Assembly: GCA_903889595.1 (NCBI GenBank)
Contig: CAISYI010000201.1
Location: 1 to 38,491, forward strand
Direction of reading: 5' to 3'
DNA: 38,491 nt
DNA from: an uncultured beta proteobacterium
Lineage (GTDB): Bacteria > Pseudomonadota > Gammaproteobacteria > Burkholderiales > Burkholderiaceae
In this document: piece by piece, positions 12,234 to 19,714 of the stretch
Layout of the letters: each line of letters begins with the position of its first letter
Position numbering within the stretch: the first letter of the stretch is position 1
The notes under the pieces: generated by a model
What the model was told of the DNA's origin: nothing
What the model saw: only the letters and a program-made list of their open reading frames with translations
Database searches by the model: none
Position numbers and translations under genes: made by a program

Positions 12234-12464
12234 ATGGGAATGCCCGTTAGGATTGATGATTTGCTTTATGAGCAAGCCAAAATCGAATCAAAAATCGAAC
12301 ATCGAACTATTGCAGGTCAAATAGAGTTTTGGGCAATGGTTGGTCGAGCTGCCCTAGATAACCCTGATTTACCAGTTAGTTTTGTAGCCGAGTCTTTATT
12401 AGCCCTCTCTGAACCACAGGACAACTTAACACCATTTGTCCCTAGAAACATCCCTAAGAACTAA
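12234..12464 (+). CDS. ParD-like antitoxin
   Basis: 76 aa. The N-terminus MPVRIDDLLYEQAKIESKIEHR, followed by IAGQIEFWAMVGRAALDNPD, looks like the ParD-like antitoxin family (short beta strand, then helices, ribbon-helix-helix type). The C-terminal part (about 45-76, proline-rich) would wrap the toxin. The start is supported by AAGGAG at 12222-12227; a second ATG two codons later is possible. The stop overlaps the toxin start by 1 nt (TAATG). It should neutralise the downstream toxin and repress the operon via the palindrome at 12187-12208. Confidence 0.82.
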   Translation: MGMPVRIDDLLYEQAKIESKIEHRTIAGQIEFWAMVGRAALDNPDLPVSFVAESLLALSEPQDNLTPFVPRNIPKN

Positions 12465-12742
12465 TGGGGTTCGAAGTTCTACAAACTAAAAGATTTAGTC
12501 GTGCATACAAAAAACTTCACGATAATGTCGCCTCAGACGTTAATATTGCCGTAGAGGAAATTTCAGACAAGCCAAGCATCGGCGAAAAGAAAAAAGGCGA
12601 TTTAGGCGATATGTTCGTGTTCAAATTTCGTAGCCAAAACCAGCTTTATTTATTGGGCTATACCGTTAAAGATACTTTAGAATTGATAACACTAGAGGCC
12701 ATTGGCCCCCATGAGAATTTTTATCGCGATTTGAAAAAATAA
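12464..12742 (+). CDS. RelE/ParE-superfamily toxin
   Basis: 92 aa, basic and compact, starting GFEVLQTKRFSRAYKKLHDNV and continuing through GDLGDMFVFKFR, YLLGYTV and LITLEAIGPHENFYRDLKK. This is the beta-strand and helix order of RelE/ParE-fold toxins, where C-terminal GPHENFYRDL is typical of the RelE/HigB-like branch. Members cut mRNA on the ribosome or poison gyrase; which applies here cannot be decided. Translation is coupled to the antitoxin by the 1-nt overlap. Confidence 0.85.
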   Translation: MGFEVLQTKRFSRAYKKLHDNVASDVNIAVEEISDKPSIGEKKKGDLGDMFVFKFRSQNQLYLLGYTVKDTLELITLEAIGPHENFYRDLKK

Positions 12743-14451: not shown

Positions 14452-14485
14452 GATAGTTTTGTAAGAATATTCCTACAAAACTATC
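14452..14485. repeat. 34-nt near-perfect palindrome in the bactofilin/EAL intergenic region
   Basis: The arms GATAGTTTTGTA (14452-14463) and TACAAAACTATC (14474-14485) are exact complements. The centre GAATATTC is itself a palindrome, leaving a single mismatched pair. Neither side is followed by a T tract, so a terminator is unlikely. It sits between two divergent transcription units, about 75 nt upstream of the EAL-like gene and 160 nt upstream of the bactofilin gene. It could be an operator, a cruciform or a repeat element; I see no second copy. Confidence 0.8.
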
Positions 14486-14559: not shown

Positions 14560-15372
14560 ATGGCATCAAAAAAGGGAATTTATTCTGTTTTTAAAAATAT
14601 TATCAAAAAAGAAAATGTTTTATTTCAGTCAAAACCTCAAGAAAAATTCTTGGAATCTCAACTTGTAAATTTAATGCCAATCTTTGACACGATGACACAA
14701 GAGTTTTCTGGCGTTTTACATCAAACCCTTGTAGATGCACCAGCAAATCAAATCATTCAACATATTGAAGATGGTTTAAAGAATATTGCTTATTGGCATT
14801 GTCATGGCAGAGCAATAAATACACTTTTACCTATTCATCAAAAAAATCTTAGCAATGAAGTTTTACTTGAGCAACTGATTGCACAAATATCTTCTTCAAG
14901 CCTACCAATTGGCCTCATTAAGATTCCAATAATAGGCCTTCAAGAAACGACGAACGAAAACTTAATACCAAGTTTATTGAAGTTACAGAGGCTAGGTATC
15001 ATTTTTGAGTACTGGGGTTTCAATGGAAGTGAGCAAGAGTTTACTTGGCTTAAAAAAAAGTTATTTTCTGGTGTTCATCTATCAATTAGCCTTCTTAGGG
15101 CCGTATCAATGACGACTCATTCCAAAGAAATTTACCATCAATTAACAACCTTAATTTCTAATCAAAAAATCCACACTTACAGCGGGGGTATCTCATTAGT
15201 GCATGATTTAACTTTCGCAAGAAATATGAAGCTGAATTTCTGCTATGGAACTTTATTAATGCCATCTGTAACTAAACATCAAATTTTAAAAATTAATGAT
15301 AGCCAATTTGCACATTTATCAGTAAATAAAAAACCACATTCCTCAACTAACGGAGAGAGAAAACTATGCTAG
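14560..15372 (+). CDS. Degenerate EAL-domain protein, predicted catalytically inactive
   Basis: 270 aa behind an AAGGAG ribosome site. The length and pattern fit a single EAL (cyclic-di-GMP phosphodiesterase) domain, but the active residues are gone. EAL itself reads QTL (55-57, in GVLHQTLVDAP). The ExxE region reads IKIPIIG. The DDFGTGYSS loop reads EYWGFNGSE (150-158). The EGVE motif reads SGGIS (208-212). The final QGY reads CYG (228-230). The helix/strand text KLQRLGIIFEYWG and FCYGTLLMP still follows the family. It should not hydrolyse cyclic di-GMP; a protein-interaction role as in the inactive EAL protein YdiV is possible. It overlaps the response regulator gene by 7 nt. The family assignment is by pattern, not search. 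Confidence 0.7.
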   Translation: MASKKGIYSVFKNIIKKENVLFQSKPQEKFLESQLVNLMPIFDTMTQEFSGVLHQTLVDAPANQIIQHIEDGLKNIAYWHCHGRAINTLLPIHQKNLSNEVLLEQLIAQISSSSLPIGLIKIPIIGLQETTNENLIPSLLKLQRLGIIFEYWGFNGSEQEFTWLKKKLFSGVHLSISLLRAVSMTTHSKEIYHQLTTLISNQKIHTYSGGISLVHDLTFARNMKLNFCYGTLLMPSVTKHQILKINDSQFAHLSVNKKPHSSTNGERKLC

Positions 15373-15986
15373 TTAAAACAATGCTAGTCGATGATCATCC
15401 TACGATGATTATGGCATTGAAAAGCATTATGAGCAGTCTAATTACGTTTGAAGTTATCGAAACAGCGAGTAATGGCACAAGCTGTTTAATGCTTTGCAAC
15501 TTACTTAATCCAGACTTGGTTATTTTAGACCTGGACATGCCTGATATGGATGGCTTCGATGTTATCCGCCGATTGCGGGCAAAGCACCCCAATATAAGAA
15601 TTTTAATTTTCACAAGTCTAGACGAAAAAACTTACGGGAACAGAGTTCGAGCAATCGGAGCACATGGATATTTAAACAAATCAGTTAGTCCTAAGGTTTT
15701 TATTTCCGCATGTACCTCAGTAGCTCAAGGATTTTGTTTTTATTCTATTACCTCAATGGATATTCATCGCATTGAAATCAATCAACAACTTCAAGCCTTA
15801 TCACAAAGAGAGTTTCAAGTATTAAAGCATTTAGGAAAAGGGTTAGGAAATCATGAAATTTCTGACACACTCAACATCAGTCATAAAACAGTCTCCACAT
15901 ACAAGATGCGGGTATTTGAAAAACTTGGTATAGACAATATGGCTGATCTAATTTGCTATTGCCGGGAAAACAAAGTTTGTGATTAA
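15366..15986 (+). CDS. NarL/FixJ-family response regulator
   Basis: 206 aa. The receiver domain (1 to about 120) has the acidic pair D9-D10, phosphoacceptor D55 in LVILDLDMPDMDG, switch residue T84 (FTS) and a conserved lysine in YLNKSVSP (K104). A LuxR-type helix-turn-helix follows (about 140-200: LSQREFQVLKHLGKG, then ISDTLNISHKTVSTYKMRVFEKLGI). The architecture resembles BvgA/EvgA. The start at 15366 lies inside the end of the EAL-like gene; an in-frame ATG at 15381 is an alternative. The cognate kinase is encoded 14 nt downstream. Confidence 0.93.
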   Translation: MLVKTMLVDDHPTMIMALKSIMSSLITFEVIETASNGTSCLMLCNLLNPDLVILDLDMPDMDGFDVIRRLRAKHPNIRILIFTSLDEKTYGNRVRAIGAHGYLNKSVSPKVFISACTSVAQGFCFYSITSMDIHRIEINQQLQALSQREFQVLKHLGKGLGNHEISDTLNISHKTVSTYKMRVFEKLGIDNMADLICYCRENKVCD

Positions 15987-16000
15987 GAAGGAAAAAATAT

Positions 16001-17767
16001 ATGAACCAATACTTTCAATTTAACTTAGTCAATAAGTCATTAATTTTATTTTTAATACTTTTAATAACTATTTACTTTTTGCATATTCCCGACGACGGAT
16101 ACCTAACTTTACAAAGATCACACACTGCTTCTTGGTTACTAGGTTTTATATTTTGCCTATGTACTTTTTTAATTTTGATCTGCCAAGTTGCTTGGCAATC
16201 CAGGAAGTCCTACTTACACAATATCGATAACATGAATAAATTAGTTAAATCAAAAATAAATGCAATACAAGCAAATGAAGCAAAAACAAATTTTCTCGCA
16301 ACAATTAGCCATGAGATAAGAAATCCTATTCAAGCAATCCTTGGAATCCATGAGTTTTTATTAAATGATGGTTCAATGCGTGGTGAGAATAAAAAATTAT
16401 TAATTAGTGCTCACCATACTGCTAAATCACTCCTAGAAATCCTTAACCAAGTTTTAGATTTAACAAAATTAGAATCAGGCAAGTATCAACCTTCTTATTT
16501 ACCAACGAGCCTGATTGATCTTCTTGAAAATACGATGCAGTCGTATTCTGCATTAGCTAATGATCATAAAACCCAATTGCATTTAATTGTAGATCCCACT
16601 ATAGCTCCTAGCTTACTTATCGACCGCGTAAGAATTAGACAAGTTCTACAAAATTTAATTGGCAATGCTGTGAAATTTACTAAAGAAGGTTCAATTAGTG
16701 TGACATGCCAAGTACTATGCGATAGTCATGCTGAACAGTTAATTGAATTTCATATTGCTGATACTGGTTGTGGCATGAACCATCAAGACTTAGCAAGAAT
16801 CATGGAACCTTATGAGCAAGGGAACTCTCGTCTTGGCTCGTCTATGCCTGGATCGGGTCTTGGATTAAGTATCACGAATAATTTATTACAAATGATGGGT
16901 AGTCATCTAACTCTCATTAGTGAGGAAGACCTAGGAACTAGTGCTTCTTTTAAGGTTTCTTGTAAAAGATCGTCTGCTCAAGCGCATCCCCTGAATAATG
17001 AACATTTGACTCTAACTAAAACCGACAAATTATCATTAGAAATGAATACGATTTTAATTGTTGATGATTACGAGGTTTGCAGAGAAGTATTAGCAAAGCA
17101 ACTTATTCAGTTAGGTTATAAAGTTCGGCAAGCTTCTAATGGTGAAGAAGCCTTAAAGGTTTTATCTGAGTACACAATTGACTTAGTATTAACAGACGAA
17201 TCGATGCCACAGATGCTTGGATCTGAATTAGCATGTTTCATTAACAATCATTACAAAAATATTCCCGTCATTGTCTTAACTGGGCAAATACAATCTCTCA
17301 ATTCCACTATTCCATGCGTATCCCAATTTGTCATAAAACCAGTTGAATTAAAGCACTTAAAGGAAATCATTTCTCATTCCCTAGGTTTGAGTGCGCCAAA
17401 ATCGTGGAACCTAAAATCTCTTTTTGAATTCACGGGATCTGATGTTAATAATCAAATAGATATTTTAGAGTCGTTGATGAAGTGTCAAAATCAGATCATT
17501 TCTGAACTTTCGCAAATTAATGCCGAAAGTAATCCGCATGTAATAAGACAGATAGTTCATAAGATTATTGGCGGAGCAAAAATTATTCAAGCTCTAGACG
17601 TCATAAAAGCCTGTAAGCAAATTGATGACGCAAGCTTTTGTACTTTTGAAAAAGCTAAAACAGCCTTGATTGATGCTTTACAAAACAATAATGAGGACAT
17701 TAATAATTTTTTAAACACCTTACTTTTAAATCACAGTGTCAGTGCAAACAAAGAAAAAATTCACTAG
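16001..17767 (+). CDS. BvgS/EvgS-like hybrid histidine kinase (HisKA-HATPase-REC-HPt)
   Basis: 588 aa. Two membrane helices (about 12-29 and 44-65) enclose only a short outside loop, so there is no large periplasmic sensor. HisKA has phospho-histidine H104 in FLATISHEIRNP. The ATPase domain shows the N box QNLIGNAVKF (217-226), DTGCGM (254-259) and GSGLGLSI. A receiver domain (about 349-455) has phosphoacceptor D399 in LVLTDESMP. A C-terminal HPt domain has H520 in VHKIIGGAK. The expected relay is H104 to D399 to H520 to D55 of the regulator encoded just upstream. An AAGGAA-like ribosome site precedes the ATG. Confidence 0.93.
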   Translation: MNQYFQFNLVNKSLILFLILLITIYFLHIPDDGYLTLQRSHTASWLLGFIFCLCTFLILICQVAWQSRKSYLHNIDNMNKLVKSKINAIQANEAKTNFLATISHEIRNPIQAILGIHEFLLNDGSMRGENKKLLISAHHTAKSLLEILNQVLDLTKLESGKYQPSYLPTSLIDLLENTMQSYSALANDHKTQLHLIVDPTIAPSLLIDRVRIRQVLQNLIGNAVKFTKEGSISVTCQVLCDSHAEQLIEFHIADTGCGMNHQDLARIMEPYEQGNSRLGSSMPGSGLGLSITNNLLQMMGSHLTLISEEDLGTSASFKVSCKRSSAQAHPLNNEHLTLTKTDKLSLEMNTILIVDDYEVCREVLAKQLIQLGYKVRQASNGEEALKVLSEYTIDLVLTDESMPQMLGSELACFINNHYKNIPVIVLTGQIQSLNSTIPCVSQFVIKPVELKHLKEIISHSLGLSAPKSWNLKSLFEFTGSDVNNQIDILESLMKCQNQIISELSQINAESNPHVIRQIVHKIIGGAKIIQALDVIKACKQIDDASFCTFEKAKTALIDALQNNNEDINNFLNTLLLNHSVSANKEKIH

Positions 17768-17821
17768 ACTCCATTGAAAATTAAAACATGTTTAAAATTG
17801 ATACACTATAGGGGAGACAAT

Positions 17822-18568
17822 ATGAATAAAAAAGTCATGCTAATTACTGGCGGAAGTAGAGGAATCGGTGCTGAAATTGCTAAAGGTGCTGCAAAGCAGG
17901 GGTACTTTGTTGTAGTTAACTACACAAGAGGTGCTAAAGAAGCTGAGGGAGTAGTTGAGCAAATTATTAATGAAGGTGGTGCCGCAGCTGCTATTCAAGC
18001 TGACTGCTCGAAAGAAGATGAAATTGTTCGATTATTTAAAGATGTAGACCAGTATGGGAAGCTTGATGCTTTTGTTGCAAATGCTGGAATTATTGGTGGA
18101 CAGAATCCAGTGACTGAAACGACCTTTGCCCAGTTGAGAGAATTATTTGATATCAATGTAATCGGCTTAATGATCTCAACAAGAGAAGCAATTAAAAGAA
18201 TGTCTACAGTACTGGGTGGAGAAGGCGGCAGAATTGTTCTTATGTCATCCGTCGCTGCAAGAACTGGTGGAATTGCCCAAGAAATTCATTATGCAGCTTC
18301 TAAAGCGGCTGTCGACGGCTTTTTAATGGGATTAGCCAAGGAAGTCGGTAATGTTGGAATTCGCGTTAACGCTGTTCGCCCTGGACTGATTGGAACTAGC
18401 ATACATGACTTACATGGTGGTCGAGAAGTGATTGAAAAGTGGGGTGCAGGTGTTCCAATGGCAAGGATTGGGGAACCAACTGAAGTAGCCCAAACAGTTC
18501 TTTGGTTGTGTTCAGACCAATCCAGCTATGTTCATGGTGCCCTGATTGATGTCTCTGGTGGGCGTTAG
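17822..18568 (+). CDS. Short-chain dehydrogenase/reductase
   Basis: 248 aa from the ATG at 17822, which has a GGGGAGA ribosome site; the upstream in-frame TTG at 17774 lacks one. Classical SDR motifs: cofactor loop TGGSRGIG near residues 9-16, NAG in FVANAGIIGG, catalytic Ser in VLMSSVAARTGG, and YAASK with catalytic Tyr and Lys. The acceptor site NAVRPGLIGTS follows. The basic residue after the glycine motif and VNYTRGAKEAE suggest NADP(H). It resembles FabG/YgfF-type oxidoreductases of unknown substrate. Its stop codon directly abuts the stop codon of the convergent FMN dehydrogenase gene. Confidence 0.88.
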   Translation: MNKKVMLITGGSRGIGAEIAKGAAKQGYFVVVNYTRGAKEAEGVVEQIINEGGAAAAIQADCSKEDEIVRLFKDVDQYGKLDAFVANAGIIGGQNPVTETTFAQLRELFDINVIGLMISTREAIKRMSTVLGGEGGRIVLMSSVAARTGGIAQEIHYAASKAAVDGFLMGLAKEVGNVGIRVNAVRPGLIGTSIHDLHGGREVIEKWGAGVPMARIGEPTEVAQTVLWLCSDQSSYVHGALIDVSGGR

Positions 18569-19714
18569 TTAGTAACTGCCATTTAATAAGATTTTTGAAT
18601 CTACTTGCTTGACATATCTTAGTCCACAAAAAGCCATGGTGAGGTCTAATTCATTAGCAATAATTTCTAATGACTTCGTTACTCCGGCCTCACCCATAGC
18701 TCCCAAACCATAAATATAAGACCGACCAATAAGAGTTCCCTTTGCCCCTAAAGCGAGAGCCTTAATAACGTCTTGACCAGAGCGAATACCGCTATCTAGC
18801 CATACTTCAATATCATTTCCAACAGCTTGAATGATAGAAGGTAAGGCCGCAATGGTGGATGGAGCACCATCTAATTGACGACCACCATGATTAGAAACAA
18901 TAATGGCGTCAGCTCCAACATTTTTAGCTAGAACTGCATCTTCTGCATCCATAATACCCTTGAGGATAACTTTTCCACCCCATTGTTTTTTGATGGCTTC
19001 AACCTCTGACCAGTCTAAGGATGGATCAAATTGACCTGCGGTCCAAGCACTCAAAGAGGACATATTATCGACACCTTGAACATGACCTACGATATTACCA
19101 AAATCACGGTTTTTTGTACCTAACATTCCTAAACACCAAGATGGTTTAGTCATTAAATTTAGTAAATTCTTTATGGTTGGTTTTGGTGGTGCAGATAAAC
19201 CATTCTTAATATCTTTGTGGCGCTGTCCTAGTATTTGTAAATCTAAAGTAATCACTAAAGCAGAACAGTTAGCTGCTCGGGCTCTTTCGATTAATGCTGA
19301 AACAAATTTTTTGTCTTTCATTACATACAACTGGAACCAAAATGGCGCTTGGGTTCTCTTATACACTTCTTCGATTGAACAAATACTCATCGTTGATAAA
19401 CAGTAAGGAACTCCAAACTTTTTTGCGGCATTTGCAGCTTGAATCTCTCCATCGGCAAATTGCATCCCAGTCATACCGACAGGCGCTAAAGCTACAGGCA
19501 TTGCAACTTCTTGTCCCAACATTGTTGATTTAATCGAACGATCTGCCATATTAATAGCAACACGTTGACGAAACTTAATCGATTGAAAATCTGATTCATT
19601 TGCTCGATAAGTGCTTTGAGTCCAAGAACCTGAGTCTACGTAATCATAAAACATACGTGGCGCACGTTTTTCATGGAGAACTCTTAAATCTTCAATATTT
19701 GTAATCGGGCTCAA
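18569..19714 (-). CDS. FMN-dependent 2-hydroxyacid dehydrogenase (L-lactate dehydrogenase/glycolate oxidase family)
   Basis: 381 aa, TIM-barrel family. Visible family residues: FYDYVDSGSWT with the active Tyr near residue 25, MPVALAPVGMTGMQ, FQLYVMKD, VITLDLQILGQR, the FMN-binding lysine in VILKGIMDAEDA, the catalytic His/Arg in SNHGGRQLDGAPS, and the phosphate-binding DSGIRSGQDVIKALALGAKGTLIGR. Members oxidise L-lactate, mandelate or glycolate, passing electrons to quinone or oxygen. The length and the SNHGGRQLDGAPS text favour a dehydrogenase like LldD, but the substrate is not fixed by sequence. It is preceded by an AAGGAGA ribosome site. Confidence 0.9.
   Translation of the reverse strand: MSPITNIEDLRVLHEKRAPRMFYDYVDSGSWTQSTYRANESDFQSIKFRQRVAINMADRSIKSTMLGQEVAMPVALAPVGMTGMQFADGEIQAANAAKKFGVPYCLSTMSICSIEEVYKRTQAPFWFQLYVMKDKKFVSALIERARAANCSALVITLDLQILGQRHKDIKNGLSAPPKPTIKNLLNLMTKPSWCLGMLGTKNRDFGNIVGHVQGVDNMSSLSAWTAGQFDPSLDWSEVEAIKKQWGGKVILKGIMDAEDAVLAKNVGADAIIVSNHGGRQLDGAPSTIAALPSIIQAVGNDIEVWLDSGIRSGQDVIKALALGAKGTLIGRSYIYGLGAMGEAGVTKSLEIIANELDLTMAFCGLRYVKQVDSKILLNGSY

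Follow-up and report, generated by a model that had tools for sequence, protein, structure and literature searches.

Contig CAISYI010000201.1 of assembly GCA_903889595.1 derives from an uncultured member of the genus Polynucleobacter. The whole stretch analyzed here, referred to as the window (38,491 nucleotides (nt)), carries three consecutive plus-strand genes, the first of which (14560..15372) encodes a 270-residue protein with the EAL fold of cyclic di-GMP (c-di-GMP) phosphodiesterases and without their catalytic residues. It is followed by the genes of a 206-residue response regulator of the BvgA/EvgA/NarL type (15366..15986) and of a 588-residue hybrid histidine kinase (HK; 16001..17767). 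We propose, with a probability of about one half, that a former EAL phosphodiesterase has become a c-di-GMP-independent regulatory subunit of the BvgAS/EvgAS-type phosphorelay with which it is co-translated, modulating it by protein contact, and that this subunit, near-universal in the genus, has outlived c-di-GMP signalling. Inactive EAL regulators are already known, and so are loci combining an EAL protein, a response regulator and a BvgS-type kinase. What is new is the overlapping three-gene form, its near-universality in the genus, its persistence in genomes without detectable GGDEF domains, and a predicted operator, for which one further target is conserved. No paper linking Polynucleobacter with "EAL domain" was found among the open-access papers searched, a scope outside which most subscription-journal papers lie.

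The EAL fold is a prediction. The Pfam EAL family matches residues 69-235 of the window protein with an E value of 7.7e-5 and 22.6 bits, below its cut-off of 31.3 bits. At E <= 0.001 it is found in 13 of 30 orthologues, it is the sole Pfam family found in any of them, and an N-terminal receiver (REC) domain is not present. Searching the PDB with the window sequence alone gave nothing convincing (best E 0.26), while the profile of the 30-row family alignment retrieved RocR as the best sequence match (E 4.5e-5). An AlphaFold2 model built on the same alignment (predicted local distance difference test, pLDDT, 80; predicted template modelling score, pTM, 0.74) matched EAL domains in Foldseek with an E value of 7.8e-13, all 50 rows shown being EAL-bearing by description, and the best EAL match in VIA aligned 205 residues with a Z of 23.7 and a root-mean-square deviation of 2.8. 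Model, Foldseek and VIA agree on an EAL TIM barrel, with only about 30 residues ahead of it in the model. YdiV is absent from the top 50 fold matches shown, which is no argument against a likeness to YdiV.

An earlier note on this DNA had read the protein as an EAL fold in which the catalytic signatures are replaced, and both halves of that claim are borne out. Set against 20 intact EAL domains from Polynucleobacter, none of the 30 orthologues retains the Asn, either Glu of ExxE, the first Asp of the DD pair, the Lys, either Glu of EGxE or the Gln of QG; the second Asp of the DD pair survives in 8/30 and is lacking in the window protein. This comparison covers the nine columns from the Asn onward; before the Asn (Q, EAL, R) the alignment is misregistered, and that part was read by eye, which gave E or M at the Q position (HEPIF, LMPIF) and showed that the window protein and the main clade have no Glu at the place of the EAL motif. 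The metal- and substrate-binding residues of an active c-di-GMP phosphodiesterase are lost, and none of the 30 aligned orthologues has intact EAL/DDFG motifs. Structural positions are retained, two Gly residues in 30/30 and one Phe in 29/30. Statements on invariance cover the 30 rows kept in alignment A1, from which six of the 35 loci examined are omitted (L035, L040, L054, L055, L059 and L065; copy broken, cut or with a displaced start). The N-terminal end, residues 1-24, exceeds the core in conservation (means of 0.87 and 0.75 versus 0.64, 0.61, 0.40 and 0.64 along consecutive stretches of the core), Y8 being invariant among the aligned orthologues. A helix of about 20 residues is conserved here, the AlphaFold confidence being low for most of this part. 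As to a possible membrane-binding function, none of the six rows examined has the top hydrophobic moment of its protein in this helix, and one comes close.

Regulator and EAL-like protein are nearly always retained or lost together. In a profile search of 151 Polynucleobacter genomes the EAL-like gene was found in 138 (113 of the 117 of high quality) and the regulator in 137 (111 of the 117). Both occur in 136 genomes and neither in 12, four of which (G093, G119, G156 and G159) reach 90% completeness or more with contamination of 5% or less; two (G108 and G126) have an EAL-like remnant without the regulator, and one (G116) has the regulator only, 51 nt from a contig start, where its EAL-like gene would fall off the contig. 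Among the first 61 genomes the gene was present in 36 of 37 genus members and in none of the 24 others. A scan of 84,980 species genomes yielded 96 confirmed stretches, the best 80 of which belong to Polynucleobacter records, to metagenome-assembled genomes (MAGs) with broader titles, and to one record titled as another phylum, taken as mislabelled. Within the order, 399 genomes searched at E <= 1e-6 gave, apart from seven matching genus members, only generic-looking EAL domains; candidates in 13 of the order's genomes (E 2.9e-14 to 7.3e-7, in open reading frames (ORFs) of 369-1119 residues) were rejected as such. A public MAG titled Thermoflexus hugenholtzii (L117, CALPOM020000058.1) carries a Polynucleobacter-type locus, and the name of this record is probably wrong.

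The gene order is kept. The regulator gene directly follows the EAL-like gene in 35/35 loci and the kinase comes next in 34/35, being deleted in G017 and split in G013. A further 20 loci, picked for an odd-looking copy or for nearness to the clade of the window, include 18 with matches to all three genes; in G129 and G173 the kinase is in pieces. As the earlier note had it from the ORFs, the EAL-like and regulator ORFs overlap in the window by 7 nt and a hybrid kinase with REC and histidine phosphotransfer (HPt) domains comes after them. In the 35 loci of relatives the overlap is 1 nt (23 loci), 4 nt (five) or 16 nt (two), and five loci have gaps of 5-21 nt. A Shine-Dalgarno-like GGAG for the regulator (15352..15355, plus strand) lies within the final codons of the EAL-like ORF; in 28/35 loci a sequence of this kind is found no more than 22 nt ahead of the regulator start. 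This arrangement suggests that translation of the two genes is coupled. Pfam identifies Response_reg and GerE in the regulator, whose phospho-acceptor Asp motif is found in 36/36, and HisKA, HATPase_c, Response_reg and a weak HPt (E 0.023) in the kinase of the window. In 36 kinase ORFs the His box was found in 34, the REC motif in 33 and the HPt motif in 35, by simple patterns that miss true variants and with the split gene of G013 counted twice. A dead EAL protein is tied, as predicted, to a relay of the BvgAS type, and none of the three outcomes that the earlier note had named as refuting its reading was seen.

The EAL-like gene is under purifying selection. The ratio of non-synonymous to synonymous substitution rates (dN/dS; simple Nei-Gojobori) is 0.06-0.17 in those 13 of the 15 pairs for which dS was usable, in a set that leaves out L035, L040, L048, L055, L059 and L065. 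Some copies are broken, a few possibly by sequencing error: in G001, G023 and G035 beside intact regulator and kinase ORFs, in G169 beside a full-length kinase match, and in G017 and G129 beside an intact regulator. Since the regulator stays intact where the EAL-like gene is broken, a modulator fits better than an obligate input. Readthrough of in-frame stops was considered and rejected, seven of the many copies with apparent stops and those of G068, G096 and G122 showing natural ends; G001 has the only true internal stop among the copies read, and unread copies may differ.

Ahead of the operon stands a conserved DNA site. In the window it is the inverted repeat TGTAAGAA-TA-TTCCTACA (14460..14477, no strand assigned), 83-100 nt before the EAL-like start codon, which we predict to be the operator of the regulator. 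A relaxed pattern, GTARG-N6-CYTAC, sought in 150 nt upstream for the window and in 350 nt for the others, occurs in 27/36 upstream regions (rate after shuffling, 0.0008) and in a 28th locus (G011) 86 nt before the likely true start. Lacking it are six loci of one deep clade, L059, which is cut by a contig end, and G035; a displaced start was rejected as the cause in G035, where operator and start region are both gone. The exact form GTAGGNNNNTTCCTAC occurs in 14/16 genomes, at one place each and always before the EAL-like gene; G000 and G003 have variant sites instead, and the reversed sequence, used as a control, hit once, in G015. A stricter pattern, TGTARG-N6-CYTACA, is found at six places in 3/12 genomes: twice in G000 and twice in G067, before the EAL-like operon and before a gene for a protein of the HTH_17 family (PF12728), and in G010, where the second place lies elsewhere.

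The HTH_17 gene (G000:C177:1234-2030, locus L236; also L238 and L254-L280) encodes a protein of 228-231 residues in the clade of the window and is divergent from a sucA-like gene. It is present in 27 of 28 genus genomes, with a sucA-like match, one of them short, in 27/27 loci. A palindrome or a relative of it stands mostly 76-104 nt upstream, the most conserved block there being TAAGAA-N-TTTCCTAC; TTCCTAC is found in 25/27 of these regions and a full palindrome (at least 10 of 12) in 8/27. The four genomes sampled from the deep clade have a perfect or near-perfect site before HTH_17, and the site of the main clade is argued for only by its fixed place and sequence. The half-sites of the palindrome ahead of the operon are BvgA-like. 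The heptad of BvgA is TTTCCTA and the box of EvgA is TTCCTACA. For BvgA, binding to an inverted heptad has been reported (PMC7250471). We infer that both palindromes, that of the operon and that of HTH_17, are bound by the encoded regulator, and the HTH_17 regulator is likely to be a second tier of the circuit.

In the mechanism that we propose, the kinase would phosphorylate the BvgA/EvgA-type regulator in a His-Asp-His relay, and the regulator would bind inverted TTCCTAC half-sites upstream of two targets, its own operon and the HTH_17 gene next to sucA, so that the phosphorelay probably drives its own operon plus the HTH_17 regulator. The EAL-like protein, made just ahead of the regulator through overlapping, coupled translation, would bind the regulator, or the REC or HPt domain of the kinase, and work without c-di-GMP. 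Most likely it dampens the relay, which would amount to a built-in negative feedback. The YdiV-like contact with the regulator that the earlier note suggested would fit.

Several observations weigh against this proposal. The counts of co-retention are uncorrected for shared ancestry and for assembly gaps. The searches made found no orthologue outside the genus, and at six loci of the closest regulators from other genera, in four genomes, one of which has a kinase-like ORF nearby, an EAL-like ORF beside the regulator is missing. The deep clade of six loci is without an operator before the EAL-like gene. The reversed control of the stricter pattern hits three places in two other genomes (G002 and G016), and the HTH_17 site of the main clade lacks the outer bases, its palindrome score of 8 being at the level of shuffled sequence.

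The strongest alternative, which we hold unlikely while giving it some weight, is that the main partner of the EAL-like protein, as for BvgR, which is described as acting on other regulators, is another protein, for example the HTH_17 regulator or a further transcription factor, and that the operon is shared for expression only. RisA, not BvgA, is the reported target of antagonism by BvgR (PMC12805831), YdiV acts on FlhD4C2 and on Fur (PMC3510510, PMC7515728), and among predicted targets only the HTH_17 gene is conserved besides the operon itself. The near-perfect co-loss with the regulator and the overlapping reading frames, however, point to the relay itself.

A second alternative holds that the protein is a non-catalytic c-di-GMP receptor, feeding the level of the nucleotide into the relay as FimX or LapD would. 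The fold does resemble, in VIA, the EAL domains of FimX and LapD that were solved with c-di-GMP, and the genome of the window has four GGDEF matches and five strong EAL matches besides the 270-residue protein. Against it, only the second Asp survives, in a minority of orthologues, of the nine catalytic and ligand columns, and the gene persists where GGDEF is undetected. GGDEF (PF00990) was found in 104 of the 151 genus genomes and, at E <= 0.001, not in the other 47, the search being confined to this one kind of possible c-di-GMP maker. The EAL-like gene is kept in 43 of these 47 (31 of the 32 of high quality), eight single-contig genomes being among them. Of the 43 copies, 27 were read fully and are uninterrupted ORFs of 266-315 residues (27/27); the copy of G074 has no internal stop, that of G001 has one, that of G028 is cut by a contig end, and 13 were not read. 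Among the 27, 37 pairs with a dS of 0.05-1.2 give a dN/dS of 0.08-0.22, on the assumption that the ancestors of these pairs were without GGDEF too. Because the gene is kept under purifying selection in GGDEF-less genomes, c-di-GMP is unlikely to be required for its role, and we consider a receptor function improbable; the suggestion of the earlier note that the protein reads c-di-GMP without cutting it is not supported as a conserved role. Some GGDEF-less genomes have another EAL-type match (G020 and G070) or weak partial ones (G105, G132 and G134). Several genomes (G105, G014, G132, G134, G071 and G007) share weak matches limited to the C-terminal part of the EAL model, in ORFs of 443-449 and 536-544 residues; these may represent another family of degenerate EAL proteins.

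The earlier note had further remarked that the kinase has almost no periplasmic domain, and had suggested the EAL-like protein as a possible sensory input. The remark is right for the kinase of the window and its own clade: only a short loop separates two membrane segments read by eye, and a periplasmic sensor domain is not present. In terms of the BvgS architecture the Venus flytrap (VFT) domain is absent from this kinase and HK, REC and HPt are present. It does not extend to the system as a whole. Of 34 loci, 24 have kinases of about 700-830 residues, three (relatives of the window) of 581-586, six (a third clade) of about 530, and one a split gene. The extra part of the long kinases is N-terminal, with a motif like EEQxWIDAHPVVRFSIHE, and is shortened in G001 and G011. 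Pfam missed it: of six, one gave SBP_bac_3, at E 0.23. A model of it from 17 kinases (pLDDT 75, pTM 0.61) gave in Foldseek the periplasmic domain of BvgS as the top match (E 1.8e-12) and that of EvgS as the fifth (E 1.1e-11), with low TM-scores (template modelling scores) of 0.25-0.49. Kinases of the main clade combine this BvgS/EvgS-like domain with HK, REC and HPt motifs, and no PAS domain was found in the eight kinases scanned. The EAL-like gene thus occurs with and without a periplasmic domain in the kinase, and as it adjoins long, sensor-bearing kinases it is no replacement for a missing sensor. A role as sensory input, already at odds with the broken copies beside intact regulator and kinase genes, appears very unlikely. 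That the gene is a decaying enzyme gene, kept only as the source of the ribosome-binding site of the regulator, has frameshifts, a stop or a lost start in several genomes in its favour and can be largely dismissed in view of a dN/dS near 0.1, of the conservation of core and N-terminal helix in intact copies and of the retention of the gene in most of the genus.

On the 5' side the locus is bordered, on the minus strand, by genes for a bactofilin and an M23 peptidase (both identified by Pfam) and by groES/groEL. In the upstream alignment, the spacer that separates groES from the EAL-like gene (L036:3565-3900 and relatives) contains an element TTAGCACTC-N9-GAGTGCTGA resembling a CIRCE heat-shock operator of groESL. 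A 92-residue ORF of the window (12464-12742) resembles what we take to be a RelE/ParE-type toxin, a label given without a search. Downstream, a PBP4-like gene is found in 34/35 loci, the remaining locus stopping at a contig edge. In most other loci examined it comes directly after the kinase or after an HU-like ORF; in the window (17774-19714) and its near relatives G015, G025 and G003, a short-chain dehydrogenase gene (by Pfam in the window) and a second gene, which we assume to be lactate-oxidase-like, lie between the two.

Among known systems, the circuit can be compared in its second tier with EvgAS of Escherichia coli, in which, to our knowledge, no EAL protein takes part. The EvgSA two-component system drives a second transcription factor, YdeO (PMC4222967), and the HTH_17 gene may hold a like position here; YdeO is of the AraC/XylS type, whereas the Polynucleobacter protein belongs to HTH_17. 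YdiV and BluF of E. coli are, as described, degenerate EAL-type anti-regulators contacting a transcription factor or repressor, a contact that we infer for the 270-residue protein; we know of neither being encoded with a phosphorelay. BvgS has two VFT domains and a PAS domain, the latter lacking in about 30% of its homologues; the kinase of the window has no VFT, and those of the main clade showed no PAS in the eight scanned.

BvgR and RocR/RocR3, both described as negative for part of the output, are the nearest precedents by analogy. The Roc1 locus of Pseudomonas likewise joins an EAL protein (RocR), a NarL-type regulator (RocA1) and an unorthodox kinase (RocS1), in a different order, a rocR-rocS1 operon being divergent from rocA1, and overproduction of RocR3, whose EAL residues are altered, lowers RocA1- and RocA3-controlled expression (PMC12051241). 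RocR is described as having a receiver domain and an active EAL domain, and the Polynucleobacter protein has neither. BvgR of Bordetella, reported to be without 12 of 13 key residues (PMC11537037), is an EAL protein lacking catalytic residues that works, as we propose here, with a BvgA-type regulator and a BvgS-type kinase; we compared the two by published function and motif loss, not by sequence. Found in 1995, BvgR is described as poorly understood in its mechanism, c-di-GMP binding being among the current models, and its promoter is bound by BvgA~P (PMC12805831), to which the palindrome before the Polynucleobacter operon is a suggestive parallel. If our proposal is true, the Polynucleobacter locus would be a natural model for BvgR-like action without a nucleotide and a clean example of an enzyme fold surviving the loss of its second messenger. 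A genus that retains a protein comparable to BvgR where GGDEF is undetected would separate nucleotide-binding from nucleotide-free ideas of how BvgR acts; these small-genome environmental bacteria suit such a test, with the predicted operator and the HTH_17/sucA target as ready read-outs. The difference from BvgR is that the Polynucleobacter gene heads an overlapping array of three genes and is kept in genomes without detectable GGDEF proteins.

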